49,709 bases of DNA from assembly GCA_022825235.1 (NCBI GenBank), contig JAJDYI010000071.1:1-49709 (forward strand), read 5' to 3'. This stretch comes from Alphaproteobacteria bacterium. Its GTDB lineage: Bacteria; Pseudomonadota; Alphaproteobacteria; TMED109. Both the position numbers and the translations under genes were made by a program. Positions 6,255 to 47,354 of this stretch are shown one piece after another; position 1 is the first letter of the stretch; every line of letters begins with the position of its first letter. The notes beneath the pieces were generated by a model that was not told the origin of the DNA, did not search any database, and saw nothing but the letters and a program-made list of their open reading frames with translations.

Positions 6255-7089
6255 CGCCGTCTGCCGCCTGCGGTGTCGCGGGCAGGAACGCTTCGGGCAC
6301 GTAGATGCGGTAGGTCGGATGAAATCTGCCGCCCTCTACCAGGGCCCGTGGCCCGGACCCGAAGTCGATTCCTGAGGCGTCCAGGTGCTTGCGCCATGCG
6401 TGTTGGTGCTTGTCGGCAAACACGAAGAACAGCCGTCGCACCTTCACGCTGCGGCACGCCGCCAGGAGTGCCGTGAGCCGCCTGGGTCGGAGCGACACCA
6501 GCCCCTCGAAGACCTTGTCGAGGTTGTCGAAGGTGGCATTCCGCGGCAGCTCGTCGAGGGCCTCGAGGATGGCGCGCTCCGGCGATGATGCCCTGAGGGG
6601 CCAGCGCCACACCTCCACCGTCGGCCGGGTTCCCGCAGCGTCAAGATTGGCATCATCGATACCGAGGGGGTCGTCGCCGAATAGCGAGCGCCGGCGCACG
6701 ACGATCTCGGTCTGCATGGGCAGCCGCTTCAGCCAGGACGGCACCTCGCCATAGAAGTGAACGCGCGATCTCCCGCCGAGTTTCAGGTAGTGGGCGTAGC
6801 CGGCCATGTCGAGGGCGCTCTCTCCGCCGAGATGGACGGCGTACTTCATGAGCCGTTGCAGGGAAAGGAGCGGGATCGCCCAGGACTCCTCGTAGCCGGC
6901 CTGCGCGCCTTCGGGTCGCGGCCGGCGGTACACGCCGCGGACAACGCGTTCGAGCCACCCGCGGGCGACATAGTCGTGGATGGACTTCGGGTCGATCCCC
7001 TGGGCCCTCAGCCAAGGTGTGTCCACCATGAAGCCGGGAGGGACGGTATCCAGGAGCGGTTTCAGGCGTTGCGCTCTTTGGCGGTTCAT
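6247..7089 (-). CDS. abiEi: AbiEi-family antitoxin and transcriptional repressor
   Basis: A 280-aa protein with an N-terminal winged-helix region (residues 10-55, including YVARGWLERVVRGVYRRP, typical of AbiEi_4 type antitoxins) and a C-terminal AbiEi domain. Family members neutralise AbiEii and repress their own operon. Candidate starts are TTG 7098, ATG 7095 and ATG 7089. A promoter (TTGCGT, 17-nt spacer, TATTTT) would start transcription at about 7089-7090, so ATG 7089 as a leaderless start fits best and no ribosome site is visible. The gene overlaps the toxin by 8 nt. A 23-bp palindrome upstream is a candidate operator. Confidence 0.9.
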   Translation of the reverse strand: MNRQRAQRLKPLLDTVPPGFMVDTPWLRAQGIDPKSIHDYVARGWLERVVRGVYRRPRPEGAQAGYEESWAIPLLSLQRLMKYAVHLGGESALDMAGYAHYLKLGGRSRVHFYGEVPSWLKRLPMQTEIVVRRRSLFGDDPLGIDDANLDAAGTRPTVEVWRWPLRASSPERAILEALDELPRNATFDNLDKVFEGLVSLRPRRLTALLAACRSVKVRRLFFVFADKHQHAWRKHLDASGIDFGSGPRALVEGGRFHPTYRIYVPEAFLPATPQAADGDA

Positions 7090-7096
7090 AGCCATC

Positions 7097-7125
7097 AAAA
7101 TACTGATAGTTCAAAATACACGCAA
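7097..7125 (-). promoter_or_regulatory. Predicted abiE promoter
   Basis: Read on the minus strand, the -35 is TTGCGT (7125-7120) and the -10 is TATTTT (7102-7097), with exactly 17 nt between. The expected transcription start falls on or next to ATG 7089, implying a leaderless mRNA. Confidence 0.45.
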
Positions 7126-20374: not shown

Positions 20375-21259
20375 TCACACACGCAAGTACGCCTCGGTAA
20401 AGCCAGCAACGTCGGACACAAATTCCGTCCTATGGATCGCACGATGACACGATGCGCAAAGCACCGCGAAATCGTCGGCGTGAACCTCGCGTGTTTCGTT
20501 CTCGCGAAGCTCGTGAACCGGCGTAAGGTGATGAAGTTCGAAGCTCGATCCCCAAACCTCACGTTCGTCTTCGTCGATCGACCAGTTGCACGCCTCGCAC
20601 TGGTATCCTTTGCAGTCAATAAAACGTCGGTTGTTGCCCCGCCGCTCCAACCGTTCCGACAGGCGCCGTTGTCTCCACTCCACCGCTGATACTTCTTCCG
20701 GCGGTTGGGCCATGCCATGCGCACCGACGTAGGCCATCAGCCGTTCGCGGAATGCTTGGACCCCCGGTACGTTCTGTGCCGCCTCATTGCTCAGCCCGTA
20801 CCAGATGTTTTGATTACCGATCCCACCGAAGCCGCTCGGCGGATTGTCCCGCGCCCGAGGAATCCGAAAACACCGCTCAGCTTCGGTCACCAGTGTCGCA
20901 TCGTCAGCAGTGAAACTCACCCACCGGCGAGAGTTGGGTCTCCGGATTCTGTGACGCGACACTGTTGCATCGTTGTACCAACCCACCACCAGGAAATCGC
21001 CGCTTGTCGGATGCTCCGCGCAGAAGACGACCAGAACGTCGTTTACGGTATCGTCTCCACGCGCTACCCCTAGATGCTCAATTCGAAGTTGCTGACCTCT
21101 GTACTTGACGTACCCGTAGTAAGTGCCACCAACCGGCAGAAAGTTCAGGCTCTCGTGCGGCACGTTACCCTCGTCCACAAATCGGCCGCCTCCCACCGCT
21201 CGCTCCCTGTTTGACCGGTAGGCCGCCATCCAGGCGACGCGACAAACCAATATTTCCAT
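20375..21259 (-). CDS. HNH endonuclease with N-terminal variable domain
   Basis: A 294-aa protein. The C-terminal 70 residues form a full HNH site with its zinc cysteines: CEAC, then FELHHLTPV with the His-His pair, then DDFAVLCASCHRAIHR. The N-terminal 200 residues (MEILVCRVAWMAAYRS, GGTYYGYVKYRG, IGNQNIWYGLS) are typical of a recognition domain found ahead of HNH in McrA-like single-gene restriction enzymes, though I cannot name it. ATG 21259 was chosen because GAGGGGAATCGTC stands before it. By family it is a candidate modification-dependent or phage-restricting nuclease. It diverges from a small HTH gene. Confidence 0.8.
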   Translation of the reverse strand: MEILVCRVAWMAAYRSNRERAVGGGRFVDEGNVPHESLNFLPVGGTYYGYVKYRGQQLRIEHLGVARGDDTVNDVLVVFCAEHPTSGDFLVVGWYNDATVSRHRIRRPNSRRWVSFTADDATLVTEAERCFRIPRARDNPPSGFGGIGNQNIWYGLSNEAAQNVPGVQAFRERLMAYVGAHGMAQPPEEVSAVEWRQRRLSERLERRGNNRRFIDCKGYQCEACNWSIDEDEREVWGSSFELHHLTPVHELRENETREVHADDFAVLCASCHRAIHRTEFVSDVAGFTEAYLRV

Positions 21260-21421
21260 GACGATTCCCCTCTTCCAACCATTAATGGCGAACCTTGGCC
21301 CCGCCGGCAAGGTCCTCTGTCTTGAAGCAAATCAAGCGCGACGCGGCGCCTGGGGGAGCCCTCTCCGTCCGACGCGGTACGCCCACGCGGGACAACGGTC
21401 TACACGAAGGACGGTCCTCAG

Positions 21422-22074: not shown

Positions 22075-22950
22075 TCACGGAGAGCCGGACAAATAGAATT
22101 GCTCGGATAGCTCGGCGATTTCGGCCGCTTCTACCTCGTCAAATTCGAAGAGCCTCTTAAAGCTCCGTGCGCAGTTGGTGTGGCGTGACGTAGGCTTTAG
22201 CATCTCACTAACTGATGTCGTGCTATCCTGATCTCCATTCTTGGCTTTCAGGAGCAGGCGATATAGAACTATAATGACTAAGGCACGGTCTTTCAGCAGT
22301 TCTTTGCGAAGAATTGCATCATTGAGACTAAAGAACGTAATAGTAACAACGCCACGAAGTTTCAAATGGTGATCTGTCGCTTTACTTCGAGCTAGATACC
22401 CATAGAAGTCAATCACATCCTCCGGATCATTGTCCAATTGACCAATCGGGTAAATGAGCCATGGTTTTTCCCCTTTCATATTCCACGGATTGGTGCCGTC
22501 GAGGTCGTATCGAGCTGATATCGGAAAATAATCCTTTTTAAGCGCAGAATTGCAGGATTTGCATGCGACAGCATAGTTCCAGAGATGATAGGTCAACAGG
22601 TAGTAGCCACGGCGTCCGGGGTCTGGCGCAGTCAGCATGACTCCTTCTTTAGCCAGGTTCGAAGCGAGAGTCCAGTGCCTAACATTTCCTTTCGGCCGAA
22701 AATGCTCAATGTCGAGTTCGTACCGTCCCAGTTTAGAATCTTCGTACTTTTTTTCGCAAAAGCAACACTTAGATCTCCCTTGTATCTCCATAAACACGGG
22801 CTTCACTTCACTCCAAATTGAACTATCTTCTTGGTATTTTCCCAGATCGCGGAACGAGTCGGTGCGCGTTTTTGTGCGTGCCCGCCAGCCTGGTACGCGG
22901 GCATCAATCAGAGTCTGCAACTCGGTCGGAGTGATGTCGTAGCGTATCAC
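22075..22950 (-). CDS. ptuB: HNH nuclease, PtuB-like (Septu)
   Basis: A 291-aa protein with a PtuB-type HNH: CCFCEKKY, then YELDIEHFRPKGNV carrying the HNH histidine, then LWNYAVACKSCNSALKKDYF with the second Cys pair. In Septu the HNH subunit cuts nucleic acid when the ATPase partner senses infection. It overlaps the ATPase gene by 4 nt, so translation is coupled with ATPase first, the known ptuA-ptuB order. The C-terminal 100 residues are helical. It is AT-richer than the flanking genes. Confidence 0.85.
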   Translation of the reverse strand: MIRYDITPTELQTLIDARVPGWRARTKTRTDSFRDLGKYQEDSSIWSEVKPVFMEIQGRSKCCFCEKKYEDSKLGRYELDIEHFRPKGNVRHWTLASNLAKEGVMLTAPDPGRRGYYLLTYHLWNYAVACKSCNSALKKDYFPISARYDLDGTNPWNMKGEKPWLIYPIGQLDNDPEDVIDFYGYLARSKATDHHLKLRGVVTITFFSLNDAILRKELLKDRALVIIVLYRLLLKAKNGDQDSTTSVSEMLKPTSRHTNCARSFKRLFEFDEVEAAEIAELSEQFYLSGSP

Positions 22951-24167
22951 GTGTCGAGACCTGAAAGTTCAGCCATCAAGTCTCGCGCAGATACAGTATC
23001 ACCGGTGCGGGTACTTCGAAGAAGTTTACGTATTCGCCTAGTTTGGTTAGAAGAGCGTGTTGAACTTAAGCCGAAGAGTTCTGTAAGAAGGATTTGATCA
23101 GCGTCCAGTTTCGATATATCAACCTCTACACGGTTCAGCACGCTACCGCTCCTATTTCGCCGGGCAATAATCACATTATGCCATTGCAAAGATCCGACGA
23201 GGAGCGGACTGTGAGAAGTGACAATAAACTGCACCGTTGGCAGGCATCGAGCGAGCTTGGGAAGCAAATCTCTTTGCCAGCCGGGATGAATATGCAAGTC
23301 AACCTCATCAACCATGACGATGCCGGAGTTGCGATCTAGAGGCCTATCTATTGGGCAAGTCCTGCAGACATGGTAGAGCAGATCTCCAATCCAGCCGAGA
23401 AAAGCGCGATAACCATCAGATAGAGCTGGGAAAGGTACGAAAGAACGCCCGTGCTGGAAGATGTATTCGTCTCTATCTCTGGATTCGGTTAAGCGATATC
23501 TACCTCGTCCGAGAAGTCGATTTATAAGCCCTTTTACCTCCTCGAAGCGTTCGGGAAATTCAACCTGATATTGAGGGAGCCAATGGCTTAGCGGAAGCAG
23601 GGAGTATGTTTCTTCAAAGAGGTTCATGACTCGACGAGCGCGGATGAATGAAGTGGTACGGCGTCCGGCCGAGTCGACGTTGCGTGTGTTTTCGACTCGG
23701 CGGTTTGCGCCGTATCCTACGAAGAAGAAGGCATCCGAACTCTCGCTATAGATCGGGTGCCATGGCTTTTCATCCATATGGGTCCATTTAAGTCTTTCCA
23801 AGTCACCAACTTGTTCAATACAGACCTGAGATTCAACTCGTGAAATATGGGCTGGGAAATTTTCTGTTCGATCTTGAGTGTTGGGCGTAAAGATCGCGCT
23901 GATTTGGGCGCCAGTTTCTACTGGATAACCGTGTATTCGTCGGATGAGGTGATACGGAAATATTCCGGACTCTGCGACCGCTGGACCCAACGCTGCAAGC
24001 GCCACTCCTTTAAGAAGGGTAGTCTTTCCGGAGCCATTTCCGCCAATAACAAGGTTTATATTTGGCAAGCGTGGAGGTTCGGCTGTGTTGATGTATGGAT
24101 GCACGAAGTCGATGGATGATCGCCTGAACGTCCGAAAGTCCTTCAAAGTGATCGAGTCAATGTACAT
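22947..24167 (-). CDS. ptuA: SMC/ABC-type ATPase, PtuA-like (Septu)
   Basis: A 406-aa AAA-type ATPase of the OLD/PtuA class. Walker A GGNGSGKT lies at residues 42-49, the signature region near FPALSDGYRAFLGW, Walker B GIVMVDEVDLHIHP about residue 290, and the H-switch in TSHSPLLV. The order matches ATPases that lack a TOPRIM domain, so nuclease activity must come from the HNH partner. ATG 24167 (next to GTG 24170) follows GGAAGGCAGGT. With ptuB it forms a two-gene Septu-like anti-phage system. Identity to characterised Septu was not tested. Confidence 0.85.
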   Translation of the reverse strand: MYIDSITLKDFRTFRRSSIDFVHPYINTAEPPRLPNINLVIGGNGSGKTTLLKGVALAALGPAVAESGIFPYHLIRRIHGYPVETGAQISAIFTPNTQDRTENFPAHISRVESQVCIEQVGDLERLKWTHMDEKPWHPIYSESSDAFFFVGYGANRRVENTRNVDSAGRRTTSFIRARRVMNLFEETYSLLPLSHWLPQYQVEFPERFEEVKGLINRLLGRGRYRLTESRDRDEYIFQHGRSFVPFPALSDGYRAFLGWIGDLLYHVCRTCPIDRPLDRNSGIVMVDEVDLHIHPGWQRDLLPKLARCLPTVQFIVTSHSPLLVGSLQWHNVIIARRNRSGSVLNRVEVDISKLDADQILLTELFGLSSTRSSNQTRRIRKLLRSTRTGDTVSARDLMAELSGLDT

Positions 24168-24170
24168 CAC

Positions 24171-26310: not shown

Positions 26311-29300
26311 TCAGTCTTTCCGTATGATCGCGTCGACGAGTCCCGACGTCATGAACACTAACAGGCCGCGCTCCGCCCCGGTCGTATCGAGATAGGCTCG
26401 GACCTGGGCGCGGTAGTGTTCGAGCGTTTCGGCAGAGGGATCGACGTCGCTCTTCCAGTCGATCACCACCTGCGGCGCGCCATCTGCGTCGAAAGCGATG
26501 GCATCGACGATCCCCGCCGTCGCCTCCTCCTGAGCGTCGGTCATGGTCGACCGAAACACCGGGAGCTCCGGGACGAGCCTGTGCCTGAGGCCGGCTATTT
26601 CAGAGAGGGAGAGTGCACGAACGACACTGCTGGCGAGTTCGGCCGGCGATAGCCCCTCGGCGGGTTCGTCCACCACGGGCCGGTCCAGGGCTCGGATCAG
26701 ATCCTCCGCGCGGGCGCATAGGTCCGGCAGGTTCTCCGTCGTCTCGTCGGTGAGCACCTCCTCGATCAGCTTGTGCAGGATGAGGCCGCGCTCCCGCCCG
26801 CCCTGTATCGCCGCTGGGGCGGCACCATCGACCGGCGCGCCGTCGCCGTCCGTGATGAGGATCGTGGGCGTTTCCTCCCTCGGCACCGGATGGGCCGCAC
26901 CCTCGTCCCGACTCGGCGTCCTCCAGACGATGCTGCGCGTGCGCTCCGCGATCGCCGCCGCCTCGGCGGCAAATACCTCGCGCGTCTGCTCGTTCTCCGT
27001 CACGGGCTCGCCCGCACCCACTTCTGCCGGCAGACGGTCGAGATTGAGCGCGGGAAGCCCTGGCAAATCCAGATCCACGACGGAGAGCCAGGCCGTGCGG
27101 GCGGCGTCGACGTCGAGCCGGGGCAGGACCAGGAGTTCCCGCGCCCGGGTGGCGGCGACGTACCAGAGGCGAACGCGCTCGCGATCGAGTTCGGCCCTTT
27201 CGTCGTTCCGGGCTGCCTCGTATCCGGTCGGCTCGACGCCAAACACGCGGCAATGAAACCGGCCAGTCGCGCGGTCGGTCACGGCGCTGTCCGCCGCCAT
27301 CACCCGGGTCATGGTGTTGATCGGCACGACGATAGGCCATTCCAGCCCCTTGGCTGCATGCATGGTATAGAGCGCCACCGCCTCCTCCTGGGCGTCCGGC
27401 CGGCCCTCCACGGCGCGGGCCTCGTCGCTCCACGCGGCCGTCATCGTCTCGGCGAAAGCGCGCAGCCCCCGTACAGCATAGGCCCGGCTGAAGCCGAGAT
27501 AGAGATCGACATTGGCCAGTGCGCGTTCCGCCTGGCCGCGATGGCGCCGCAGCAGGATGGGGCGGACCCGGAGCACGTCGACGGCTTGGGAGAGAAGCCC
27601 ATGCGGCGTGGTCGCGTTCGCACCGCGTTGCAGCGCCTGAAGTTTCTCGACGATATCCCGCGCGAGAGGGTTCGCGATCGCATCCGGCGCGACACTCATA
27701 TCCAGTCGCGGCAGATCGTCGGGCGCATCGTCCGAGCGCGGCAGTGCCCAGACGAGGTCGAGCAGCTCCTCCTCGGTCAGCCCCACCAGCGGCCCGCGCA
27801 GCAGCGCGCCGAGCGCGAGCGTATCGCGCCGGTCGGCCAGGACCCGGGTGATCGCGATGAGGTCCTGGATTTCCTGGCGCCTGTAGAGACCCTTGCCCGC
27901 CTGGGTGGCGACGGGGATGCCGCGCTCTTCCAGCGCTTCCTCGTACCGCCAGAGGTCGCTCCCGGTTGGCGCGAGCAGGGCGATGTCTCCGGCCCGGCAC
28001 GGGCGCTGCCCGCCGTTCTCGGGGTCGGGAACCGGCTCGCTGCCGATCAGGCGCGCGCACAACTCGGCGACGGCCTCGGCTTCTCCGTCGCGTTGCCGCT
28101 GCGCATTCGCATTGCCCTCCTCGTCGGCCACTTTGACATCCAGTGCGGCGACCGAGGGTCCCCCGTCCCGCGGCGGCCGGAAGGGGTCGAGGGCCTGGAA
28201 GCCGGGCTGGCCGTTCTCCTCGGAGAGCGCGGTCTCGAAACGCGCGTTCACGTATTCCATGATCGGCGCGAGGGAGCGGAAGTTGGTGGCGATCGAGAGC
28301 ACTGCGTCCGCGGCGTGCGCGCGGAACGCCTCGCGCGCCCGGACATAGGCGGCGATGTCGGCGCCGCGGAAGCGGTAGATCGCCTGCTTGGGATCGCCGA
28401 CCAGGAACAGCGCGCCCGGCCGAAGCGCGAACGCCGTCCAGTCGCCGACGTCGCCGTCTTCCGGCGGCTCGCCGCAGAGGCGCCAGAATATCTCCGTCTG
28501 AAGCGGGTCGGTGTCCTGGAACTCGTCGACGAGGACGTAGCGGAAGCGCGCGGCCAGAGCACGCCGTACCTCGTCATGGTCGCGCAGCAGATCGCGCGCC
28601 GAGAATATCAGGTCGTCGAAATCGAGCAGCGCGGCGGCGCGCTTGTGCTCGCGGAACAGGTCCATGACGGGCTCGACCAGCGGCACGAGATCGGCGAGCA
28701 CATGGGTGGCGACGGCCTGCTGGAAGACCGTCCAGACCCCACAGCAATTGGCGTAATGAGCGCTGGCCGCGTCGTTCAGCAGCTCCGCATCGGCCTTGGC
28801 CAGGCCCGCGGGCCTTGCGGCGGCTACCCACATTCCCTTCTTCCGATACGCCCGAAAAGCGCCCGATCCGGTGCATAGATCGGGGTGGGGTGTCATCACC
28901 AACAGCGCGACGAGCGCGGCGGGGGTGTCGGCTGGAAGCGCGGCGGCAACCTCCCCGGCTAGTTCCTGAAACCGACCGGCGATGGCGACGGTTTCAGGCT
29001 CCTTCGCCTCCGCCTCGTCCAGGAACGTGGCGAAACCGTCAACCGCTTCCCGGAACCCGGCAGCCAGCCGATCGAGGTCCTGTAGCTCGTAGGGAGCCAA
29101 CTCCCGATGCCGGCGGAGATGCTCGAGGACGGTGCGGATCAGCGCGATGGTCGCGTCGGGATCGTGCAGGACCAACTCAGCCAGCAGGCCGCCTTCCTCG
29201 CCGGCGAGTTCTTCCCGCAGCCAATTGTCGACGATCTCGGCGAAGGCGAGCTCCGCCTGGTCGCGGTCCATCACGGAGGCGCCGGGGTCGATGTCGGCTT

Positions 29301-29700
29301 CCACCGGATAGGGAGTAATGAGCCGCTGGCAGAAGCCGTGGATGGTCGAGCAGGTCATCTCGTCGAGCGCCGCGTCGGCTCGGGCGAGGTTGCCGCGCTG
29401 CTCTTCCGACAGGCCATCCGGCAGGGCGGAGCGAAGCTCGACCGGAATGTCGCCGGCCGCAAGCGCGCTCACGAAGGCGCGCACCCGAATGAGCAGCTCG
29501 CTCGCGGCGAACTCGGTGAACGTCACGGCGGCAATGGACCTGGGGGCGACGCCCGCCGCCAGCAGCATCGCGATCCGGCCCGCCAGAACCGCTGTCTTGC
29601 CCGATCCCGCGCCGGCCTCGACCAGGAGAGAGCGGTCGCGGACCGCGACGGCCTCGCGCCGCGCGGCATCGTCGGAGAGTGAAAGTCGCCCGTTCGCCAT
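26311..29700 (-). CDS. AddA-like UvrD helicase-nuclease
   Basis: A 1129-aa superfamily 1 helicase with a C-terminal nuclease. Motifs in order: Walker A EAGAGSGKT near residue 33; STIHGFCQRL; LVDEFQDTDPLQ near 390 (Walker B); FLVGDPKQAIYRFRG near 430; TMHAAKGLEWPIVV near 780; YVAATRARELL near 850. The RecB-type nuclease follows with LILHKLIEEVL, VIDWKSD near 1078 and the YRAQVRAYLD motif. This is the AddA layout, complete. Its ATG overlaps the stop of the AddB-like gene by one base (TGATG), so translation is coupled. Housekeeping AddAB repairs breaks and degrades phage DNA; here, in an island and beside AAA and WYL genes, a dedicated defence role is likely. A misplaced housekeeping addAB cannot be excluded. 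Confidence 0.85.
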   Translation of the reverse strand: MANGRLSLSDDAARREAVAVRDRSLLVEAGAGSGKTAVLAGRIAMLLAAGVAPRSIAAVTFTEFAASELLIRVRAFVSALAAGDIPVELRSALPDGLSEEQRGNLARADAALDEMTCSTIHGFCQRLITPYPVEADIDPGASVMDRDQAELAFAEIVDNWLREELAGEEGGLLAELVLHDPDATIALIRTVLEHLRRHRELAPYELQDLDRLAAGFREAVDGFATFLDEAEAKEPETVAIAGRFQELAGEVAAALPADTPAALVALLVMTPHPDLCTGSGAFRAYRKKGMWVAAARPAGLAKADAELLNDAASAHYANCCGVWTVFQQAVATHVLADLVPLVEPVMDLFREHKRAAALLDFDDLIFSARDLLRDHDEVRRALAARFRYVLVDEFQDTDPLQTEIFWRLCGEPPEDGDVGDWTAFALRPGALFLVGDPKQAIYRFRGADIAAYVRAREAFRAHAADAVLSIATNFRSLAPIMEYVNARFETALSEENGQPGFQALDPFRPPRDGGPSVAALDVKVADEEGNANAQRQRDGEAEAVAELCARLIGSEPVPDPENGGQRPCRAGDIALLAPTGSDLWRYEEALEERGIPVATQAGKGLYRRQEIQDLIAITRVLADRRDTLALGALLRGPLVGLTEEELLDLVWALPRSDDAPDDLPRLDMSVAPDAIANPLARDIVEKLQALQRGANATTPHGLLSQAVDVLRVRPILLRRHRGQAERALANVDLYLGFSRAYAVRGLRAFAETMTAAWSDEARAVEGRPDAQEEAVALYTMHAAKGLEWPIVVPINTMTRVMAADSAVTDRATGRFHCRVFGVEPTGYEAARNDERAELDRERVRLWYVAATRARELLVLPRLDVDAARTAWLSVVDLDLPGLPALNLDRLPAEVGAGEPVTENEQTREVFAAEAAAIAERTRSIVWRTPSRDEGAAHPVPREETPTILITDGDGAPVDGAAPAAIQGGRERGLILHKLIEEVLTDETTENLPDLCARAEDLIRALDRPVVDEPAEGLSPAELASSVVRALSLSEIAGLRHRLVPELPVFRSTMTDAQEEATAGIVDAIAFDADGAPQVVIDWKSDVDPSAETLEHYRAQVRAYLDTTGAERGLLVFMTSGLVDAIIRKD

Positions 29701-32369
29701 CACGGCGCGTCCCACACATGGGTCGCATCGCCGAGGAGTGCGTTCGCGGCCGCCTCCTTCCGAACGCGGTAGACGGCGCCGGCGTTGGCCGGAAGCGCGA
29801 AGGCGAGGTCGTCATGCTTCTCGCCGGTATCCGCGCCCATGACCGCACCGCCGGAGGCGAGGCTGGCGTGCGCCGCCCTCAGGTGGCTGGTGAGCGTGCC
29901 GAGCACGGCGTCCGGGTCGTCGAGCCGCAAATCCCGATCCTCGTGCGGATAGAGGAGCGACGCCACGATGGACACTTCCTCGCCCAGCAGCGCCCTCACC
30001 GCGAAGGCGTAGAGGCAGCGCTGCAGTTCCTTTCCGCCGTCGAGGACGATGTCGTCCCTGGGAACGCGCCCGGTCTTGTAATCGCGCACCAGCGCGCGTC
30101 CGCCGTCGCCGGAGATGTCCAGGCGGTCGATGTATCCGGCGATGTTGAACCCGGCGCCGGCAATCTCGACGGCGGCCCCGGTATCCCACGGGACCGCACC
30201 GTCGGTCTTCGGTTCCGACCCGCCGAACGGGACCTCGCCAAAGGCGCGCGCGTCCGCGAGATCCGCGTCGCGGAAGCCGAGTGCCCGGCCGCCCAGCTCG
30301 CGCACCCCGTCGAGAGTGCGGCGCCAGATGACGGGCGGCGGCACGGCCTGCGCGGCTTCCCAGGATGCCGCGATCTCGGCGGCGGCGGTATCCATGGCCG
30401 TGCCGATCCGCTTCTCCGAGGCGCCTGCGAGACCGCCGTCCTCCTCCAGCGTGCGAAGCGCCCGGTCGAAGGTCTGGTGAACGAGATCGCCCATCGCGAG
30501 GGCATCGAGCACCAGGGGATCTTCCCCGCTCTCCGGCGCACGCCAGCGGAGCCCGTAGCGCCAGACGAACCCGAGCGGGTTGCGCAGGAGCATGCGCAGC
30601 GAGCTCGCCGACTGGGTGCGCTCCAGGATGGCCCTGATCACCGGGTGGTCGGGGCGGACGACTCCGTCGTGCGGCGTGATCTCCGCGCGCAGCCAGTCGA
30701 ACCAGCAGTCAGACGCGGCCACCGCCTGGGGCAGGCGGCGGAACTCGTCGGGCCGGGCCGTCAAGCGGTCGGTCTCGCTGAAGGCGTGCGCGGGCACGCG
30801 ATTGCGCGGCACGTAGGTCTCGGGGGCCTCGACCTGAAGAAGAAGGGTGCTGCGCCCGAGCAGCCGGCCGTCCTCGCCGCGCCGGGCGCGGGACAGCACG
30901 ATCTCGCTCTCCGTGGTTGTCAGGACGGTCGCGAAATCGCGGCGGTCGGCAGCAGCGACGGCTAGCGGATCGAGCTCTGCGGTGGGGACGATGTGATCCG
31001 AGAGGAGGCGGTCCTCCACCATGGCGCGCGGCCAGCGCGCGGAGTTGAGGCCGAGCAGCCGGACGAAGCGCCGGGGCGATGCGGCGAGCGCGTTCGCCGG
31101 CATCCAGCAGACTGAAACACAAGCGTCGATGCCGTCGTCCTGCCTGAGTGTCTCCAGGGTGAGGTCGAGCGAAGCGGCAGGACCCTCCGCGAGCGCCCTG
31201 CGCCAGATATCGCGCGCATGCCCGCGCAGCAGCGTCTCGCCTGCGTCATCGGCGGCCTCGATGCCCCGGGACAGCAGGCCGACGATGTCGGCGAGCGCCG
31301 GGCCGCGATCGGCTCCGCCCGGCCAATGGTTGGCGTCCAGACCGCCGATCAGGCGCGCCCAGGCCTCGGGAGACGAGAGCGGCGCGCCGGCCGGCAGGAT
31401 GCGCGTCCAGCCCTCCGGCAGGTCCGCAAACGGGCCGGCATGTGCCCTCAGCAGCGTGTTCAGCCGTCGCATCCGCGTCTGGGAGAGGCCGCGCAGCAGG
31501 ATGTCGGCGAGCGCCGCCGCCGCCTGCCCCTCCCGGCAGGCCGTGACCGTGACGCCGTGCACGAAATGCAGGTCGAGATTGGCGTCGGCGCGGAGGGCGA
31601 GCAGGTGGTCGTCATACTCGGCCGGCGTGGCCGAAGCGATGGCGATGTCAGCGGGCTCCGCCCTGCCGGACGCAAGCAGCTCGCGCACCCAGCGCATGGC
31701 CTCGACCGCCTCGTGGTAGGCCGTGGCGGCGCTCACGGCGGAGACCTCCGGCGACTTCGCCTCGTCGCGCACGATCTCGACGGCCTCACCATCGAGCCAG
31801 TTGGGCACTGGCCGTGGGCCCGCGTTCCAGCGCACCGGCACGCGGCGGGCGATGGCGTGGAGAAGGGACCGCCAGACCGGCGAGAGTTCGGTGATGCCGA
31901 CGATCTCGATGGGCCCGAACAGCGCCGCCGCGTGATCCAATCGCGCAAGTCCCGCGGCGACAAGATCGGCGGGTCGCATCATCGATGGCGGCAGCGCCGC
32001 TACGACCGCATCCTCAAGGCTCGCGATGGACTGGAGGCGCGGATGCTCATCGGCCCGGGCCTGAAGGTCGAGGCCGGCCCGCCATGCCTTGCGCAACGTG
32101 TCCGCGGCGGCGCCCGTCATGCCGGGCAGCGCCTTGATCCCGTCCAGCTCGCCGAGATCTGTCTCCGGCAGGACGGCCGTAATGGCTTCCCGGAGGGCAT
32201 CGTCGTCGACGGGCTGTGTCAGCCCCCCCGCGAGCCGCACCGCGAGATGCTCGAAGGTCATGACCTGAAGTCCATGCCAGCGGTTCCGGGCCGCCTCCAG
32301 CCGCAGCTCCCGCATCCTGAGCCGGCTGTGGGCGACGACCGTTCGGCGCGGCGATTCCTCGATAATCAC
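29700..32369 (-). CDS. AddB-like protein with RecB-type nuclease
   Basis: An 889-aa protein, the first gene of the operon with the AddA-like helicase. Its N-terminal 600 residues resemble the inactivated helicase of AddB, without a working Walker A; the start reads RTVVAHSRLRMREL. The C-terminal PD-(D/E)XK domain has GDLVHQTFDRAL (His about residue 629), GYIDRLDI (Asp about 748), VRDYKTG (Asp-Tyr-Lys about 762) and ELQRCLYAFA, so the active site is complete. The iron-sulphur cysteines of classical AddB are not evident, and the protein is shorter than typical AddB (over 1000 aa). The start is GTG 32369; the opposite AAA gene starts 247 bp away. Confidence 0.8.
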   Translation of the reverse strand: MIIEESPRRTVVAHSRLRMRELRLEAARNRWHGLQVMTFEHLAVRLAGGLTQPVDDDALREAITAVLPETDLGELDGIKALPGMTGAAADTLRKAWRAGLDLQARADEHPRLQSIASLEDAVVAALPPSMMRPADLVAAGLARLDHAAALFGPIEIVGITELSPVWRSLLHAIARRVPVRWNAGPRPVPNWLDGEAVEIVRDEAKSPEVSAVSAATAYHEAVEAMRWVRELLASGRAEPADIAIASATPAEYDDHLLALRADANLDLHFVHGVTVTACREGQAAAALADILLRGLSQTRMRRLNTLLRAHAGPFADLPEGWTRILPAGAPLSSPEAWARLIGGLDANHWPGGADRGPALADIVGLLSRGIEAADDAGETLLRGHARDIWRRALAEGPAASLDLTLETLRQDDGIDACVSVCWMPANALAASPRRFVRLLGLNSARWPRAMVEDRLLSDHIVPTAELDPLAVAAADRRDFATVLTTTESEIVLSRARRGEDGRLLGRSTLLLQVEAPETYVPRNRVPAHAFSETDRLTARPDEFRRLPQAVAASDCWFDWLRAEITPHDGVVRPDHPVIRAILERTQSASSLRMLLRNPLGFVWRYGLRWRAPESGEDPLVLDALAMGDLVHQTFDRALRTLEEDGGLAGASEKRIGTAMDTAAAEIAASWEAAQAVPPPVIWRRTLDGVRELGGRALGFRDADLADARAFGEVPFGGSEPKTDGAVPWDTGAAVEIAGAGFNIAGYIDRLDISGDGGRALVRDYKTGRVPRDDIVLDGGKELQRCLYAFAVRALLGEEVSIVASLLYPHEDRDLRLDDPDAVLGTLTSHLRAAHASLASGGAVMGADTGEKHDDLAFALPANAGAVYRVRKEAAANALLGDATHVWDAP

Positions 32370-32616
32370 GTCACATGTCCCGGTCGCGGCAGGTTCACGG
32401 CGATGGTGTCTTCAACTGACAGGCAATTCCTCAACACACAAGTCCTCGACGGCAGGCTCATGCCTCGCGGAAGACGGTCGGCTGACGATTTCCGCTATCA
32501 CGACCTACCAATAGCGAGAGGGACGGATCATCGCCAGCGGGCTCCGGATCGGTACGACCGGAACTGACGCATCGGTGAGGTAGGTATCCCCCGGTGTCCA
32601 TCGCCGGAGATACCCG

Positions 32617-34692
32617 ATGCTTCGCCCCTACCAGCGCCACCTTCTGTTCTCCTACCTCGCGAACGCCGCGAGGCGCCTCGACAGGCGCGACCCGGTCGCC
32701 GCCGACCTGGCAAGCTGGGTCGTCGACAACGCCCCCGTTCTCGACGACGAGAAACCGGGCGAGGTTGTCCGCCGGCGCCGGGGACGGCGGGAGAGGATGG
32801 CCGACCCCGGCGATCCCCACCTTACCGAGGACGGCTGGGCCGCCTTCCGCCAAACGCTCGCCGGCAAGGCGCGGAGGGCGGGAAGGCCGAAACCCGACCT
32901 GATGTCGCGACGCCTGCGGCGCCTCTCCGGAATCACCGAAACTTCCGCGACGGATATCCGCATCCTGGAGGTTCTGCTGCTCTACGAGACCAACCCGGTC
33001 ATCGAATCGGTGGTCGACGACGTGTTCATGGGCGGGAGCCGCCGGGCCTGTTTCAACATGCGGGACTCGGCGCTCCCCTATTTTCTCGACATGTCGCATC
33101 GCGCGGTCGCCATGCGCTTCACGCCCGAGGCGCCGCTCGTCCGCTCGGGCCTCGTATCGGTCGACGATGACGGAGACCTCTCTCTCGTCGAGCGTCTCAC
33201 CCGGCTGGCCAACCTGCCCGGCAAGGATCTCGGGATCAGGGACATCCTCCTCGGCGAGCCGGACCGCGCGGAGCTCGAATGGACGGATTTCGATCATGTC
33301 GCGGAGAGCCGGGATCATGTCGAGAACCTCCTCCGGGGGGCGCTGCTGGCTGGGGAAACGGGCGTCAACATTCTCCTTCACGGGCCTCCCGGCACCGGCA
33401 AGACCGAGTTCTGCCGGACCATGGCGGCGAGGCTGGGCGTGCCGCTGTTCAGCATCGGCGAGCGCGACAAGAGGGGCGGCGAGCCGAACCGCGTGGAGCG
33501 GCTCGGCGATCTCTCGCTCGCCCAGTGCCTGCTCGCGCGCGGCGGAAATTCCCTCCTCCTGTTCGACGAGATGGCCGATCTGCTGCCGGATCCCGGCTGG
33601 AACTCCTTTTTCGGCATGCATGGCCGCCATGCCGCTTCGGGAGGATCGAAGCTGTTCATGAACCGGCTGCTGGAGAACGCGCCGGTGCCGACGCTCTGGA
33701 CCGCGAACACCGGAGACCACATCCCCGAGGTTCTCCTCCGCCGCATGAAGTTCGCCCTCGAACTGCGCCTTCCTCCGCCGCGCATCAGGGCGCGGATCTG
33801 GTCGCGCCAGCTCGCCCGCAACGACATCGAGGCGGAACCCGGCGATGCGCTCGCGCTCGCCACCGCCTTCGAGGCGCCGCCCGGCGTCGCGGCGGAGGTC
33901 ACCGCCGCCGCACGCCTCACCGGCGGCGATATCGACTCCGTGCGGCGCGGCCTGCAGGGGCTCGCCCGCGCGCTCGGCTGCGAAAGGCCTGTCCAGGGCG
34001 TGCCGGTCCGCTTCGATCTCGCGCTCATGCAGTCGGATACGGATCTCGTCGGGCTCGCCGACCGGCTGACCGATGGTAACGAACGGCGCTTCTCGCTCTG
34101 CCTGCAGGGGCCTCCGGGCACGGGGAAGAGCGCATGCGTCCGCTACCTCGCCGACCGGCTCGGGCTGGAGGTCGTGCAGAAGCGGGCATCCGATCTCCTG
34201 TCTCCCTGGGTCGGGCAAACCGAGCGGAAGATCGCCGAGGCGTTCCGGGAGGCGCGCGACGAAGAGGCGTTCCTGGTCTTCGACGAGGCCGACTCCCTGC
34301 TGGCCGACCGGCGTCACGCGGTGCGGAACTGGGAGGTCAGTCAGACCAACGAGATGCTGACCTGGATGGAGAGCCATCCCCTGCCGTTCGCCTGCACCAC
34401 CAACTTCGCCGACCGCCTCGACGCCGCCACCCTGCGCCGCTTCGTGTTCAAGATCACGCTCGACTACCTCGCTCCGGGCCAGGCGGCGTCGGCGTTCCGC
34501 GGGTATTTCGGTATCGACGCACCTCCGGAAATCTCGCAATTGGCGACCCTGACTCCCGGCGACTTCGCGGTGGTCCGGAAGAAGGCGGAAATCCTGCGAT
34601 GCCTCGACGATCCGCCGACGCTTGCCGGCATGCTGCGCGAGGAATGCGACGCGAAGGAGGAGCGGCGGAGGCCAATCGGATTCCGTCCGTAG
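32617..34692 (+). CDS. Tandem AAA+ ATPase
   Basis: A 691-aa protein with two AAA+ modules after an alpha-helical N-terminal region of about 230 residues. Module 1: LHGPPGTGKTEF near residue 256, Walker B LLLFDEMADLL near 312. Module 2: LQGPPGTGKSACVRY near 497, Walker B FLVFDEADSLL near 552, then TTNFADRLDAATLRRF, the usual sensor 1 and arginine finger order. Module 2 resembles spastin/katanin-like ATPases that thread or remodel protein. ATG 32617 follows GGAG. It diverges from the AddB-AddA operon across 247 bp and is followed 86 nt later by the WYL gene. It probably acts with the helicase-nuclease pair as remodeller or sensor; this pairing is inferred. Confidence 0.85.
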   Translation: MLRPYQRHLLFSYLANAARRLDRRDPVAADLASWVVDNAPVLDDEKPGEVVRRRRGRRERMADPGDPHLTEDGWAAFRQTLAGKARRAGRPKPDLMSRRLRRLSGITETSATDIRILEVLLLYETNPVIESVVDDVFMGGSRRACFNMRDSALPYFLDMSHRAVAMRFTPEAPLVRSGLVSVDDDGDLSLVERLTRLANLPGKDLGIRDILLGEPDRAELEWTDFDHVAESRDHVENLLRGALLAGETGVNILLHGPPGTGKTEFCRTMAARLGVPLFSIGERDKRGGEPNRVERLGDLSLAQCLLARGGNSLLLFDEMADLLPDPGWNSFFGMHGRHAASGGSKLFMNRLLENAPVPTLWTANTGDHIPEVLLRRMKFALELRLPPPRIRARIWSRQLARNDIEAEPGDALALATAFEAPPGVAAEVTAAARLTGGDIDSVRRGLQGLARALGCERPVQGVPVRFDLALMQSDTDLVGLADRLTDGNERRFSLCLQGPPGTGKSACVRYLADRLGLEVVQKRASDLLSPWVGQTERKIAEAFREARDEEAFLVFDEADSLLADRRHAVRNWEVSQTNEMLTWMESHPLPFACTTNFADRLDAATLRRFVFKITLDYLAPGQAASAFRGYFGIDAPPEISQLATLTPGDFAVVRKKAEILRCLDDPPTLAGMLREECDAKEERRRPIGFRP

Positions 34693-34778
34693 TCATTGCG
34701 CATTCCAACGGTGCCGCGTTCGCCACGGCTTCGGCACTGCCTATGCTGAACGTCCGATCGGGAAGTGGAGCAGAGACA

Positions 34779-35789
34779 ATGCGGTACGAGCGGCTTGCCG
34801 ACATCCTCCGCCTCGCGGTGCGCCTGCAGGGCGCGGGCGGGATGACACTGGACGATATCGGATCCGAATTCGAGGTCAGCCGGCGGACCGCGGAGCGCAT
34901 GCGCGACGCGGTGGAGCACGCCTTCGGGCCGTTGGTATACGACGATGCGGACGACGGAAGGCGGCACTGGAGGCTGCGCTCGAACGCCCTGCGTGATCTG
35001 ATCCGCATCTCCGCCGACGAGCTGGTCGAACTGGACACCGCCGCCTCGGAGGTCGAACGGTCGGGCCTCGACGAGCGCGCCGCATTGCTGAGGGACCTCG
35101 CCGGGAAGCTGCGCGCGCTGGCGGGGGAGGCGGAACGGCGCCGCATCGAGCCGGATCTGGAAGCGCTCACGATGGCCGAGGGGCTCGCGATGCGGCCCGG
35201 ACCGCGTCCCCGGATCGAGCCCGGACTGCTCATGACCCTGCGGGAGGCCATCAAGGCGGGCCGCACGGTCTCCTTCCGGTATCTCAGCCGCATGACGGGA
35301 CGGAAAAGCCGCCAGCATGTCCAGCCGCACGGCATCCTCTACGGCAGCAGGGCCTATCTCGTCGGCCGGTCCGACTGGACCGAGGACATGCGCTACTGGG
35401 TGCTTGCCAACATGAGCGAGGCCGCTCTCACCGCGGAGAGCTTCGAATTCGACGAAGGCTTCGATCTCGAGGAATTCGCCGCCCGGTCCTTCGGGGTGTT
35501 CCAGGAGGAGCCGATCGACGTCGCGTTGCGTTTCACCCCCGAGACCGCGGAGGACGCGGCCTCCTTCCTGTTCCACCCGGGACAGGAAACGGAAAACAAC
35601 GACGACGGCTCGCTGACCGTCCGCTTCAGGGCCGGGGGTACCCGCGAAATGTGCTGGCACCTGTTCACCTGGGGAAACGCGGTGACCGTCGAGGCGCCCG
35701 AGAGCCTGCGCCTCGAAATCGCCGAAATGTGCTCCCGGCTGGCCGTACATCACCAGATCCGGCCCGACCCGGCCGGAGACCGCGTCTGA
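34779..35789 (+). CDS. WYL-domain transcriptional regulator
   Basis: A 336-aa protein with an N-terminal winged HTH (MTLDDIGSEFEVSRRTAERM) and a WYL domain (TVSFRYLSR, VQPHGILYGSRAYLVGR) followed by a WCX extension. WYL regulators often control defence operons such as BREX or CBASS, sensing a nucleic-acid ligand. ATG 34779 follows GGAG at 34767; longer in-frame starts overlap the ATPase gene and are rejected. It lies 86 nt after the AAA gene on the same strand and probably represses the divergent promoter region at 32370-32616. Confidence 0.88.
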   Translation: MRYERLADILRLAVRLQGAGGMTLDDIGSEFEVSRRTAERMRDAVEHAFGPLVYDDADDGRRHWRLRSNALRDLIRISADELVELDTAASEVERSGLDERAALLRDLAGKLRALAGEAERRRIEPDLEALTMAEGLAMRPGPRPRIEPGLLMTLREAIKAGRTVSFRYLSRMTGRKSRQHVQPHGILYGSRAYLVGRSDWTEDMRYWVLANMSEAALTAESFEFDEGFDLEEFAARSFGVFQEEPIDVALRFTPETAEDAASFLFHPGQETENNDDGSLTVRFRAGGTREMCWHLFTWGNAVTVEAPESLRLEIAEMCSRLAVHHQIRPDPAGDRV

Positions 35790-37862: not shown

Positions 37863-39248
37863 ATGGAGTATCGCCGGTTTTTCGCCGAGCTCTTGCCCCG
37901 ACTGGACGCTGCCCGCCAGCTGGAACGCGAGTTCGACCGAAGGTTCGCCCATCGCTTCAACGTGCTCGACTATCTTCGCCAGGATGAGCTGGGCCTGTCC
38001 CGCATCGTCGCGGACTTGCTCGATCCCAAGGCGAGGCACGGGCAAGGAACCCTTTTTCTGGCGGCATTCCTGGGCCTGGATGGAGTCAGGGATGCTCTGC
38101 GCTGGCCCGACCTCAATCATTGCCGGATAGCAGTGGTCACGGAGAGACAGACCTCCGAAGGGCGTTTCATCGACATTTCGGTCGAGATCGTCGACGCGGA
38201 GGGAAATGCGTATTGCCTGGCCATCGAAAACAAACCCTACGCAGCCGATCAGCCGAAGCAGGTCGAGGATTATCTGAATTATCTGGAGACAGGCGGGTAC
38301 GGTGAGCGGTTCCTGCTGATCTATCTCTCGCCCCACGGCGAGGGCCCCTCGGAGGAGAGTGTCCCTAGAGAATCGCTGGCAAATTGGAAGAACCGCTTTG
38401 CGATCATGGCTTATTCCGCGGGCGCGGCGGAAGGGGAGGACGAATTCGAGGGAAGGCGGTTTTCGGCCGTGCTCTCCGACTGGTTCTGGGAATGCCGCAG
38501 AAACTGCGAGGTGGACCGCCTACGCTGGTTTCTCAAGGACGCGGAGACCTTCTGCAAACAAACGTTCGGGGACCTGACCATGTCGAACGATAGCGAGAAC
38601 ACAGCCGTTCGGGAATTCGTCCTACGTGATCGTGGAAATCTTGAAACTGCCTTCGCCGTCCACCAAGCCTGGCCTGGCGTGAGAGACGAGCTGTGCCGGG
38701 ATTTTCTTGAGCGGCTTCGTGAACATATCGAAACCGCCGTGCGGCAGGATCGCGAATTGAACGAATGCACCCAAGTTCAAGGTATCGTCGTCGGTTGCCA
38801 TTATGTGAGTGCTGCCGCCTACGTGAACCAGGTTTGGCTCTTCAGGAAATCCTGGCGTCCATATCGCACCGTAGGTCCGTCCAGGACCAGCACGGCAATC
38901 ATGATGGAGAACGCCAGCCGCGGCCCCTCCGGTTGGGGCGTCGGCGTAGCGTCTCCAATTTCCAGGAATGACATGGCGAACGACGACAAGAACCGGCGCG
39001 ATCGCCTGATCGAGAAGTTTAAGGCAGAGTTTAACAAAGATCGCAGTACCGACTGGTGGCCTTGGTGGGTTCCATTGGACGCCCACAAGGGAGACTGGGA
39101 TTCTCGGGCGCTTGAGTTGGAAGCGGAATGCAGGACCGGCGCCGGAGGCATCACCAGCTACTTTGTCGATCAATTCCTCGATGTCGCCAGGTGGGCGATT
39201 CCGATAATCGACGAAATAGAAGGAACTGGAGCTCACCGACGCACTTAG
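37863..39248 (+). CDS. PD-(D/E)XK nuclease (PDDEXK_4 type)
   Basis: A 461-aa protein whose first 250 residues fit the PDDEXK_4 family: NVLDYLRQDELGLSRIVADL, then HGQGTLFLAAFL, then RFIDISVEI (Asp 104) and CLAIENKPYAADQ (Glu 122, Lys 124), giving a full D-ExK site. The C-terminal half is Trp-rich and of unknown type. Such proteins are common defence-island nucleases, often alone. It starts 143 nt after the tubulin-like gene and could belong to the same block or be independent. No methylase partner is beside it; the methyltransferase 640 nt downstream looks small-molecule type. Confidence 0.75.
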   Translation: MEYRRFFAELLPRLDAARQLEREFDRRFAHRFNVLDYLRQDELGLSRIVADLLDPKARHGQGTLFLAAFLGLDGVRDALRWPDLNHCRIAVVTERQTSEGRFIDISVEIVDAEGNAYCLAIENKPYAADQPKQVEDYLNYLETGGYGERFLLIYLSPHGEGPSEESVPRESLANWKNRFAIMAYSAGAAEGEDEFEGRRFSAVLSDWFWECRRNCEVDRLRWFLKDAETFCKQTFGDLTMSNDSENTAVREFVLRDRGNLETAFAVHQAWPGVRDELCRDFLERLREHIETAVRQDRELNECTQVQGIVVGCHYVSAAAYVNQVWLFRKSWRPYRTVGPSRTSTAIMMENASRGPSGWGVGVASPISRNDMANDDKNRRDRLIEKFKAEFNKDRSTDWWPWWVPLDAHKGDWDSRALELEAECRTGAGGITSYFVDQFLDVARWAIPIIDEIEGTGAHRRT

Positions 39249-45613: not shown

Positions 45614-47056
45614 TTACAGCGCGAATTGGATTTCAATGGTCGTTGACTGGCCACTTTCCGTTGTCTGGATGATGTTGTCCTCGACGCTTCCTTGCTGTCG
45701 CCAGAGCTTCCACATGGCTTCGCAAGCCATCGGCATCCTGTTGGGTTGGCTGCCGCGGACCACATTGCGATGCAAGTCGCGGGCGACAATCCGGGATGCC
45801 CTCCGGCCGGCACGCCGGTCCGCGGCCAGCATCCTGCGGAGTTCGTTGTCGAAGGCGTCCTGCGTGAATTCCGTAGCCTGAGCCGGCTGGACGGGAGTTT
45901 CCGGCCAATCGAGTTCACGAAGAACGTGACGGGGAACCTGTCCGTGGACGTCGAACGCCGTCTGGAGGCGTGCGTTCAGCCACCCGAACCCGTCGCTTGA
46001 AAGTCGGACGGCAGGCTGCTGCATGAGGGAACGGCGCGGGTTTGTGTTGCCGTCCCCACGGGCCGCATTCCGCTGGGTGGTGGCGAATGAATCGCTCCCC
46101 AATGTGTCCATCAACTGCGCGAGGGAAACGCCGTTTTCCATGGTGCCGGCGACGAATTCGGCATTGTGGATCCGAATGTAGCGTGGCCAGCGGGTCTTCC
46201 ATGGGCGCAGCTGGATGTCGGCCTGGGTCGCATCGTCTCGGCCCTCTTGGTGTCTCAGTGCGATTGCGCGGCCGTAGACGCGGATATCCGGCCCCTTCAC
46301 GAGTCGCGAAATAAACATGACCGCTCCTTCCTCGACGCCTGTGGGGCGCCCGCGGCCTGCTGGATAGGCGAGGGCCCAGTGACTGCCTCCTCTTCTGATT
46401 TCTTCGATGGTAGGGCAGTCGAGAGGGACGCGATCGTTGCCCTCGCCGCCGAATTTCACGAACGCCTGGGGCGGGTCGGTGTAGGCCAGCGGCGTGCCGG
46501 GGACGGGTGTCGGCTCGAACCCCGCCTCGGCTCCGAAATCCCCGAGGCTGCGTGATGGAGCGGGCGGCCCACCCGACGCTCGATGGTCCGCTAGCGTGGC
46601 ATCCCAGCCGTCGAGCTGTTGCCGCTCCAGGTCGGACCCGGCGAGCGGCCACAGACTCTCGAAATAGGCCAGGCAGCGTTCGATCGCGGCGGGATCTTCG
46701 GTGACAATTCCGAACTCCCGGTTTGTCGAGAGACCGGCACCAGTGAGGTTGGCGGAGGTCACGATCGCCCGGCTTGTCCCGAATACGTAGAGCTTGGCAT
46801 GGAGGCCGCGGATACCACGGACCGCGGCGCCTGCGTCGAGGAGCAGTCGCAGGGCACCTATATCGCTCACACCGTCAGCGAAATCCGCGAGATTGAACCG
46901 GGTGATCACCTGGAGGGAAGCAGGCCGCGGTGTGAGGATCCGGTTGAGAGCGCGGGCCTTGATGAACGGACACACGATCCGAAGCTCACCGGAATCGTGA
47001 CGAAGCCCGGAGATGAACTCCGAGTCCCACCCTCGGTCGACCAGACGAAACGTCAT
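45614..47056 (-). CDS. PLD-family protein with one HKD-like motif
   Basis: A 480-aa protein. Residues 1-150 form a phospholipase D-like domain: LRIVCPFIKARALNRIL, then GLHAKLYVFG and VTSANLTGAGLSTNREFG. The motif keeps His, Lys and Asn, but the Asp of H-x-K-x4-D is replaced by Gly. PLD-type domains in defence genes act as nucleases (as in BfiI and some helicase-associated proteins). The C-terminal 300 residues are unknown and basic. ATG 47056 follows GGAG. It is upstream of, and probably co-transcribed with, the 236-aa gene. Activity is uncertain because of the lost Asp. Confidence 0.75.
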   Translation of the reverse strand: MTFRLVDRGWDSEFISGLRHDSGELRIVCPFIKARALNRILTPRPASLQVITRFNLADFADGVSDIGALRLLLDAGAAVRGIRGLHAKLYVFGTSRAIVTSANLTGAGLSTNREFGIVTEDPAAIERCLAYFESLWPLAGSDLERQQLDGWDATLADHRASGGPPAPSRSLGDFGAEAGFEPTPVPGTPLAYTDPPQAFVKFGGEGNDRVPLDCPTIEEIRRGGSHWALAYPAGRGRPTGVEEGAVMFISRLVKGPDIRVYGRAIALRHQEGRDDATQADIQLRPWKTRWPRYIRIHNAEFVAGTMENGVSLAQLMDTLGSDSFATTQRNAARGDGNTNPRRSLMQQPAVRLSSDGFGWLNARLQTAFDVHGQVPRHVLRELDWPETPVQPAQATEFTQDAFDNELRRMLAADRRAGRRASRIVARDLHRNVVRGSQPNRMPMACEAMWKLWRQQGSVEDNIIQTTESGQSTTIEIQFAL

Positions 47057-47354
47057 GGCGGTCTCCTCACCTTGACGAGGATCGCGGGCGTTTATTCCCG
47101 GGAAGCGGTCAGCACGATTCAGTTTCCAGTAAACGGTCCTGCATCGCACGTACTTCCTTGTTCAGTCGCTCGACCTCTTGGCGCGCTTGGCTTGGATGCG
47201 TTCGTCACGCTTGCCCGCCTCGCCGGCAAGGGGGTGGCGCTCTCGGACATGCGCGCGGTGACGGGCGTGCGCCCCGGCTCCTGCCCCTCACCGATACCGC
47301 CGGCCCCATCTTCGTCCCACAGATCATCGTCCGGGCTTCTCCGACCCGCCCCGC

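Follow-up and report, generated by a model that had tools for sequence, protein, structure and literature searches.

The locus and its surroundings

The window, by which is meant the whole analysed stretch of 49,709 nucleotides, lies on contig C13 of an alphaproteobacterial genome of 3.85 Mb that is 96% complete. Within it, genes for an AddB-like and an AddA-like protein lie divergently, across 247 bp, from genes for a tandem AAA ATPase and a WYL regulator, and both the open reading frames and the Pfam matches bear out an earlier description of these as four real genes. They are set out below together with a nuclease gene that lies further along.

26311..29715 (start at 29700 or 29715), minus strand: AddA-like helicase-nuclease, 1129-1134 aa, with UvrD N- and C-terminal domains and PDDEXK_1 (Pfam)
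29700..32369, minus strand: AddB-like subunit, 889 aa, with a C-terminal PDDEXK_1 (Pfam) and an AddB fold by structure search
32370..32616, no strand: divergent intergenic region of 247 bp from addB to the AAA gene, read from the sequence
32617..34692, plus strand: tandem AAA ATPase, 691 aa (Pfam), Walker A and B of both domains intact
34779..35789, plus strand: HTH-WYL-WCX regulator, 336 aa (Pfam WYL and WCX)
37863..39248, plus strand: PDDEXK_4 nuclease of candidate family PDC-S26 (PADLOC), with relatives beside the AAA gene in loci L026 and L172

The listed open reading frame of the WYL gene starts at 34134, which falls within the AAA gene, whereas the start of the HTH-WYL protein itself is near 34779. 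Within the intergenic region the 114 bp nearest addB are conserved with locus L041, although in L041 the join to the AAA-WYL genes is a different one.

The surroundings of the four genes are a defence island, in agreement with the nuclease-rich island proposed from the sequence alone. An AbiEii/AbiEi toxin-antitoxin pair is encoded at 5340-7098, and elsewhere AbiE pairs are also found near the AddB-AddA pair, upstream of it in 7 loci and downstream in 3. A PtuA-like Septu ATPase (22947-24170; PADLOC, 5e-128) lies near the AddA gene and, since a weakly matching HNH protein (20375-21310) is encoded close to it, a Septu-like unit may exist in the window. A DrmC-like PLD nuclease is found at 45614-47149 (PADLOC, 1e-130), with no other DISARM genes seen among the window genes scanned, and an integrase and a serine recombinase are also encoded around the four genes. 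The PDC-S26-type nuclease may be an optional partner of the AAA-WYL genes because of its relatives adjoining the AAA gene elsewhere. PADLOC assigned AddB to no system and returned only generic AAA, UvrD or WYL matches for the other three genes, and no core genes of BREX, Hma, Shango or Azaca were present among the window genes scanned. With respect to Gabija and Hachiman, GajB models match only the UvrD core of AddA, there is no GajA among the seven genes of the cluster that were scanned, and the cluster contains no HamA.

A divergent and additional AddAB

The closest solved structure to the AddA-like protein is AddA of AddAB (3u44, E 4e-61). Its Walker A and B motifs, the residues of motif VI and the nuclease D/DWK/Q/Y residues are invariant in 45 relatives, just as H631, D748, D763-Y-K765, Q783 and Y787 of the AddB-like protein are invariant in 51, and a complete PD-(D/E)XK active site is present in both subunits. 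As a sequence search of the PDB with the AddB profile gave no match, AddB was compared by fold, where the best Foldseek matches of its AF2 model (mean pLDDT 64.7) are 4ceh_B and 3u44_B, both AddB of AddAB (E about 1e-11), followed by AdnA. The full-length TM-scores are low because the middle region of the model is poor, and the fold is therefore supported for the N-terminal and nuclease parts only. The protein has neither a Walker A motif nor a CxxC, and, with the moderate confidence that the model allows, it has a helicase-like fold without an active motor. The pair thus resembles AddAB itself (3u44/4ceh), which likewise consists of two coupled subunits, with an SF1A motor and a PD-(D/E)XK nuclease in AddA and a motor-dead helicase fold with a second nuclease in AddB. 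AdnAB of mycobacteria (6ppj/7sjr), which provides the next structural match, is also a heterodimer of motor and nuclease, but it has a motor domain in both subunits, whereas the AddB-like protein is without Walker A. The start of addA overlaps the stop of addB by 4 nt in 67 of 90 loci and by 1 nt in a further 19; a short overlap of this kind is the usual sign of a co-translated gene pair, and the two genes are translationally coupled. All of these catalytic features, however, would be expected just as much in an enzyme of repair.

How, then, does the pair relate to the AddAB that the host would need for its own repair? The case for a defence role had looked to a second addAB in the host, and one is present: the housekeeping addA, on contig C76, scores 1000.9 bits against TIGR02784, a model with a cut-off of 860.75, whereas the AddA-like protein of the window reaches 262.6 bits and so falls far below the housekeeping equivalog threshold. 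A housekeeping addA above the cut-off is also found in 44 of the 45 carrier genomes tested, the sole exception being an acidobacterium, Bryocella (G412), which is outside the group described by the model. As judged by its sequence, the helicase-nuclease pair of the window is a divergent, additional AddAB, and it differs further from housekeeping AddAB in its place on plasmids and islands beside defence operons. The sequence-only reading had set the AddB-like protein apart by its shortness and its lack of iron-sulphur cysteines. The first of these holds, the protein being about 100 aa shorter than the AddB of the host, but the second was rejected as a mark of a non-housekeeping AddB: the host's own AddB (995 aa) has one Cys, no CxxC and no Walker A, so that the absence of iron-sulphur cysteines is not discriminating in this host.

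Distribution and mobility

The AddAB-like pair is mobile and patchy in its distribution. Among 28 genomes of the order the AddB-like gene is present in that of the window only, and it occurs in 11 of 385 genomes of the class, where several of the 11 are fragments or weak matches. A scan with one genome per species gave 292 AddB relatives, of the best 80 of which 73 belong to Pseudomonadota. The gene is also carried by 64 plasmids, 40 of them conjugative, and no AddB relatives were found in viral contigs and phage genomes.

Neighbours of the AddB-AddA cassette

After removal of duplicates 91 loci were compared, with the neighbours classed by BLAST against representatives whose names came from PGAP annotation or PADLOC, and most partner labels thus depend on BLAST to a few representatives named in this way. 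AddB and AddA are adjacent in 90 of the 91, which is to say wherever contig and reading frames let it show, and the pair is referred to here as the cassette. Upstream of AddB, HmaA/B/C (Hma being Type-1 BR) are found in 25 of the 91 loci and BREX in 9; further partners there are a multi-ubiquitin/ThiF/DUF6527 operon (8 loci), Shango (6), HKD-Snf2 helicase systems (Type-2 BR; 4 loci) and AAA-WYL (4), with DUF1403-ScpB, CBASS-like and R-M-like operons in 1-2 loci each. A TmtA-like (Tiamat-like) gene is present in 14 loci, mostly adjoining HmaA, and a further plasmid locus (L167) has Gabija (GajA/B, PADLOC) as the neighbour of the cassette. Immediately upstream of AddB, 45 loci have a WYL gene in divergent orientation. 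Downstream of AddA there are Azaca genes in 33 loci, where ZacA is the immediate neighbour in 14, and 21 loci have a DEAD-box helicase. The partners named by PADLOC are HmaA/B/C, TmtA, HKD-Snf2, ZacA/B/C, SngA/B/C, BrxC, E1-E2 and GajA/B. Spacing is operonic in several cases, at about -4 bp for SngC-AddB, about 14 bp for AddA and the DEAD helicase and mostly 4-22 bp for AddA-ZacA, and among alphaproteobacterial plasmids with ZacA 10 of 11 also carry an AddB of the cassette family.

Two of these arrangements deserve separate description. In L031 (2703-11818), L169 (664-9744) and similar loci a series of AbiE, a response regulator, a 192-aa protein, a UvrD protein (1133 aa), multiubiquitin, ThiF and DUF6527 lies directly upstream of AddB, and the ubiquitin-like genes of this type have no PADLOC match. 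In L023 (10258-17954) and L118 the order DUF1403-ScpB-AddB-AddA is found near the repABC genes of alphaproteobacterial replicons, a hint that the cassette may have a use linked to plasmids.

The suggestion that the locus serves in phage defence is well supported by this context. At a threshold of 90 bits, defence proteins are encoded in 59 of the 62 cassette loci that span 19 kb or more, as compared with none of 20 housekeeping addA loci taken from carrier genomes; the first figure is slightly favoured because a few of the case loci supplied the representatives, which leaves the zero of the controls unaffected. Adjacency alone is no proof of functional coupling, because defence islands gather defence genes anyway. 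The neighbours are exchanged around a constant pair. At least 22 changes of the named upstream partner can be traced on the AddB tree (29 if 'none' is counted, where the least possible is 10). Two pairs of sister loci illustrate how this occurs: a locus with Hma and one with BREX share 13.8 kb at 90% identity (L099 and L104), and a second such pair shares 11.9 kb at 96% identity (L036 and L109). In both pairs the homology starts near the far end of WYL and takes in AddB, AddA and the DEAD helicase, and the systems beyond it differ. The conserved unit in these loci is WYL-AddB-AddA-helicase, with BREX and Hma as alternatives at its far side. The AddB-AddA pair is not dedicated to AAA-WYL.

The AAA-WYL module

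By profile similarity the AAA protein is a Cdc48/VCP-like double AAA with a helical, uncharacterised N-terminus; two AAA domains are present in 20 of 20 relatives, and its AF2 model (pLDDT 43.6) is too poor for interpretation. IetA was considered as the identity of the gene and rejected, as only the AAA domains are matched and a partner protease was not found. A WYL gene adjoins the AAA gene in most AAA loci. The WYL protein of the window is 44-86% identical to the AAA-linked WYLs of L041, L045, L134, L135, L025 and L170, with the highest value, 86%, for L134, and gives no BLAST match to the WYLs linked to Hma or BREX. It is thus of the AAA-linked kind and distinct from the WYL found with AddAB in other loci.

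Most AAA-WYL loci are without AddAB. Some are accompanied by DUF2779 or PDDEXK nucleases (L029, L171, L172), some by Azaca-like genes (Rhodoferax, Desulfosarcina BuS5 and Pantoea) and some have no recognisable nuclease partner, while on three plasmids, of Fuscovulum, Leisingera and Novosphingobium, AAA-WYL adjoins a second AddAB family, the AddB of which is about 20% identical. In L025 (7404-17398) and L170 (8076-17425) this second family takes the form of a Rhodobacterales plasmid operon, AAA-WYL-ADP-ribosylglycohydrolase-(HEPN)-AddB2-AddA2, whose ADP-ribosylglycohydrolase and AddB2 have no PADLOC match. The Azaca-like genes, for a PLD-type protein and an SNF2/helicase, are found with AAA-WYL in L174 (7353-16213), L027 (6365-15356) and L028 (5047-14542), plasmids with hosts among the gamma- and betaproteobacteria and Desulfosarcina. 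In L142 (4169-9443) a single 1046-aa protein, with an AddA-like helicase and weak similarity to the AddB profile, is encoded directly upstream of an AAA gene, so that a third type of helicase-nuclease is found next to AAA.

The sequence-only reading had proposed AAA, WYL, AddB and AddA as one candidate system. All four genes occur together in the window, L041, L042 and L045, and the truncated locus L059 shows AAA and AddB; these 4 of 91 AddB loci (5 with L059), all of them close relatives, are however the only ones in which AAA is beside a cassette-family AddB. The union is nonetheless recurrent. The AAA of the window shares 81% identity with its counterpart in L134, a locus without AddAB beside it, and between the window and L041 AAA is 56% identical but AddB 90%, with gene order and orientation differing. 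Because of this disparity, together with the different orientation and the agreement of the WYL genes, AAA-WYL is taken to have been joined to the cassette at least twice, the AAA of the window and that of L041 separately, and its place beside the second AddAB family on three plasmids is a further recurrence. What speaks against a dedicated system is that the AAA-WYL and helicase pairs are apart in most genomes, the AddAB being accompanied by other systems in most of its loci and AAA-WYL being without AddAB in most of its own, and that the window and L041 do not even share an arrangement. The proposal is thus partly supported, and a dedicated four-gene system is highly improbable: the combination is a recurrent but minor one, around which the boundary of the system was misdrawn. 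AAA-WYL is a separable, second exchangeable unit, and the locus of the window is the junction of two exchangeable defence modules, the AddAB-like pair and AAA-WYL.

Proposed role of the two modules

What might an additional AddAB contribute beside so many different systems? The reading favoured here, with somewhat better than even confidence, is that the AddAB-like pair is a plug-in DNA-end-degrading effector for partner systems and AAA-WYL a control module. From its sequence and company the pair is most likely such a shared effector. In the first module the coupled addB and addA would produce a divergent, horizontally moving AddAB, in which the single SF1A motor of AddA would pull linear dsDNA past two PD-(D/E)XK nucleases, one per subunit. 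Such a complex would destroy DNA that already has an end, phage DNA included, with partners such as BREX, Hma/BR, Shango, Gabija or the R-M-like, CBASS-like and ubiquitin-like systems providing the recognition, an initial cut or a trigger. In the second module the WYL-HTH regulator would set expression in response to a ligand or to DNA damage, and the Cdc48-like double-ring AAA would remodel or unload a protein, such that the nuclease is licensed or cleared.

The extra AddAB could instead be a back-up for repair or counter-counter-defence, which either replaces a host enzyme blocked by phage (with inhibitors of the Gam or gp5.9 type) or mends host breaks made by restriction, thereby lowering autoimmunity with no attack on phage DNA. 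The pair is indeed an extra copy, as the host and nearly all carriers tested also have a housekeeping addA. Many of its partners (Hma, BREX, HKD-helicase, R-M) resemble restriction systems, and a preprint (PMC12407980) reports that antagonism of RecBCD by phages sensitises them to Gabija. Yet Shango, the CBASS-like and ubiquitin-like systems and AAA-WYL need not cut host DNA, and the distance of the cassette from host AddAB (262.6 bits against 860.75) is greater than a spare copy requires, which leaves this explanation unlikely. It is also conceivable, though less so still, that addBA defends on its own as a two-gene system and is only a passenger of islands, where the exchange of neighbours reflects recombination of island genes. 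It is after all the only constant unit among the loci, and three of the 62 long loci (L055, L091, L103) are without any named partner. The neighbours are however non-random, as is evident from the WYL gene upstream, from the closely spaced DEAD helicase and ZacA genes downstream, from SngC, which overlaps or abuts addB, and from the near-constant presence of cassette AddB on alphaproteobacterial ZacA plasmids.

The preferred reading of a plug-in effector points to a single DNA-shredding machine that may be common to otherwise unrelated defences. In its widest form, which is tentative and on balance doubtful, BREX, BR/Hma, Shango, Gabija, the CBASS-like and ubiquitin-like systems and AAA-WYL would all hand target DNA to one dedicated AddAB-type helicase-nuclease, missed because it is annotated as DNA repair. 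If true, an AddAB effector that is shared and can be swapped would connect BREX, Shango, Azaca and others mechanistically at the removal of phage DNA, and would explain the common backbone of defence islands on alphaproteobacterial plasmids. It would also serve as a warning that a UvrD and PD-(D/E)XK pair may be an effector of defence even where its annotation is repair.

Relation to described systems

Other pairings of nuclease and helicase are known in defence. Gabija (GajA-GajB) and Hachiman (HamAB) resemble the cassette in acting with a nuclease and a helicase on DNA ends or damage, but GajB consists of a UvrD helicase alone and HamB belongs to SF2. The AddAB fold and catalytic layout of the cassette are known and it is the proposed use that is new; no description of the cassette was found in the literature searched, where Supplementary Data S4 of PMC12839542 may hold an entry. 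That paper, in which Hma is termed 'Type-1 BR' and the HKD-helicase systems 'Type-2 BR', reports extra PD-(D/E)XK nucleases adjoining BREX, Type-1 BR and Type-2 BR loci and proposes them as auxiliary effectors. These auxiliary and back-up nucleases are like the cassette in being additional PD-(D/E)XK enzymes beside the same systems, but the main text of PMC12839542 names no UvrD, AddA, AddB or RecB pair, and the cassette extends beyond BREX and BR to loci with Shango, Azaca, Gabija, CBASS-like and AAA-WYL genes.
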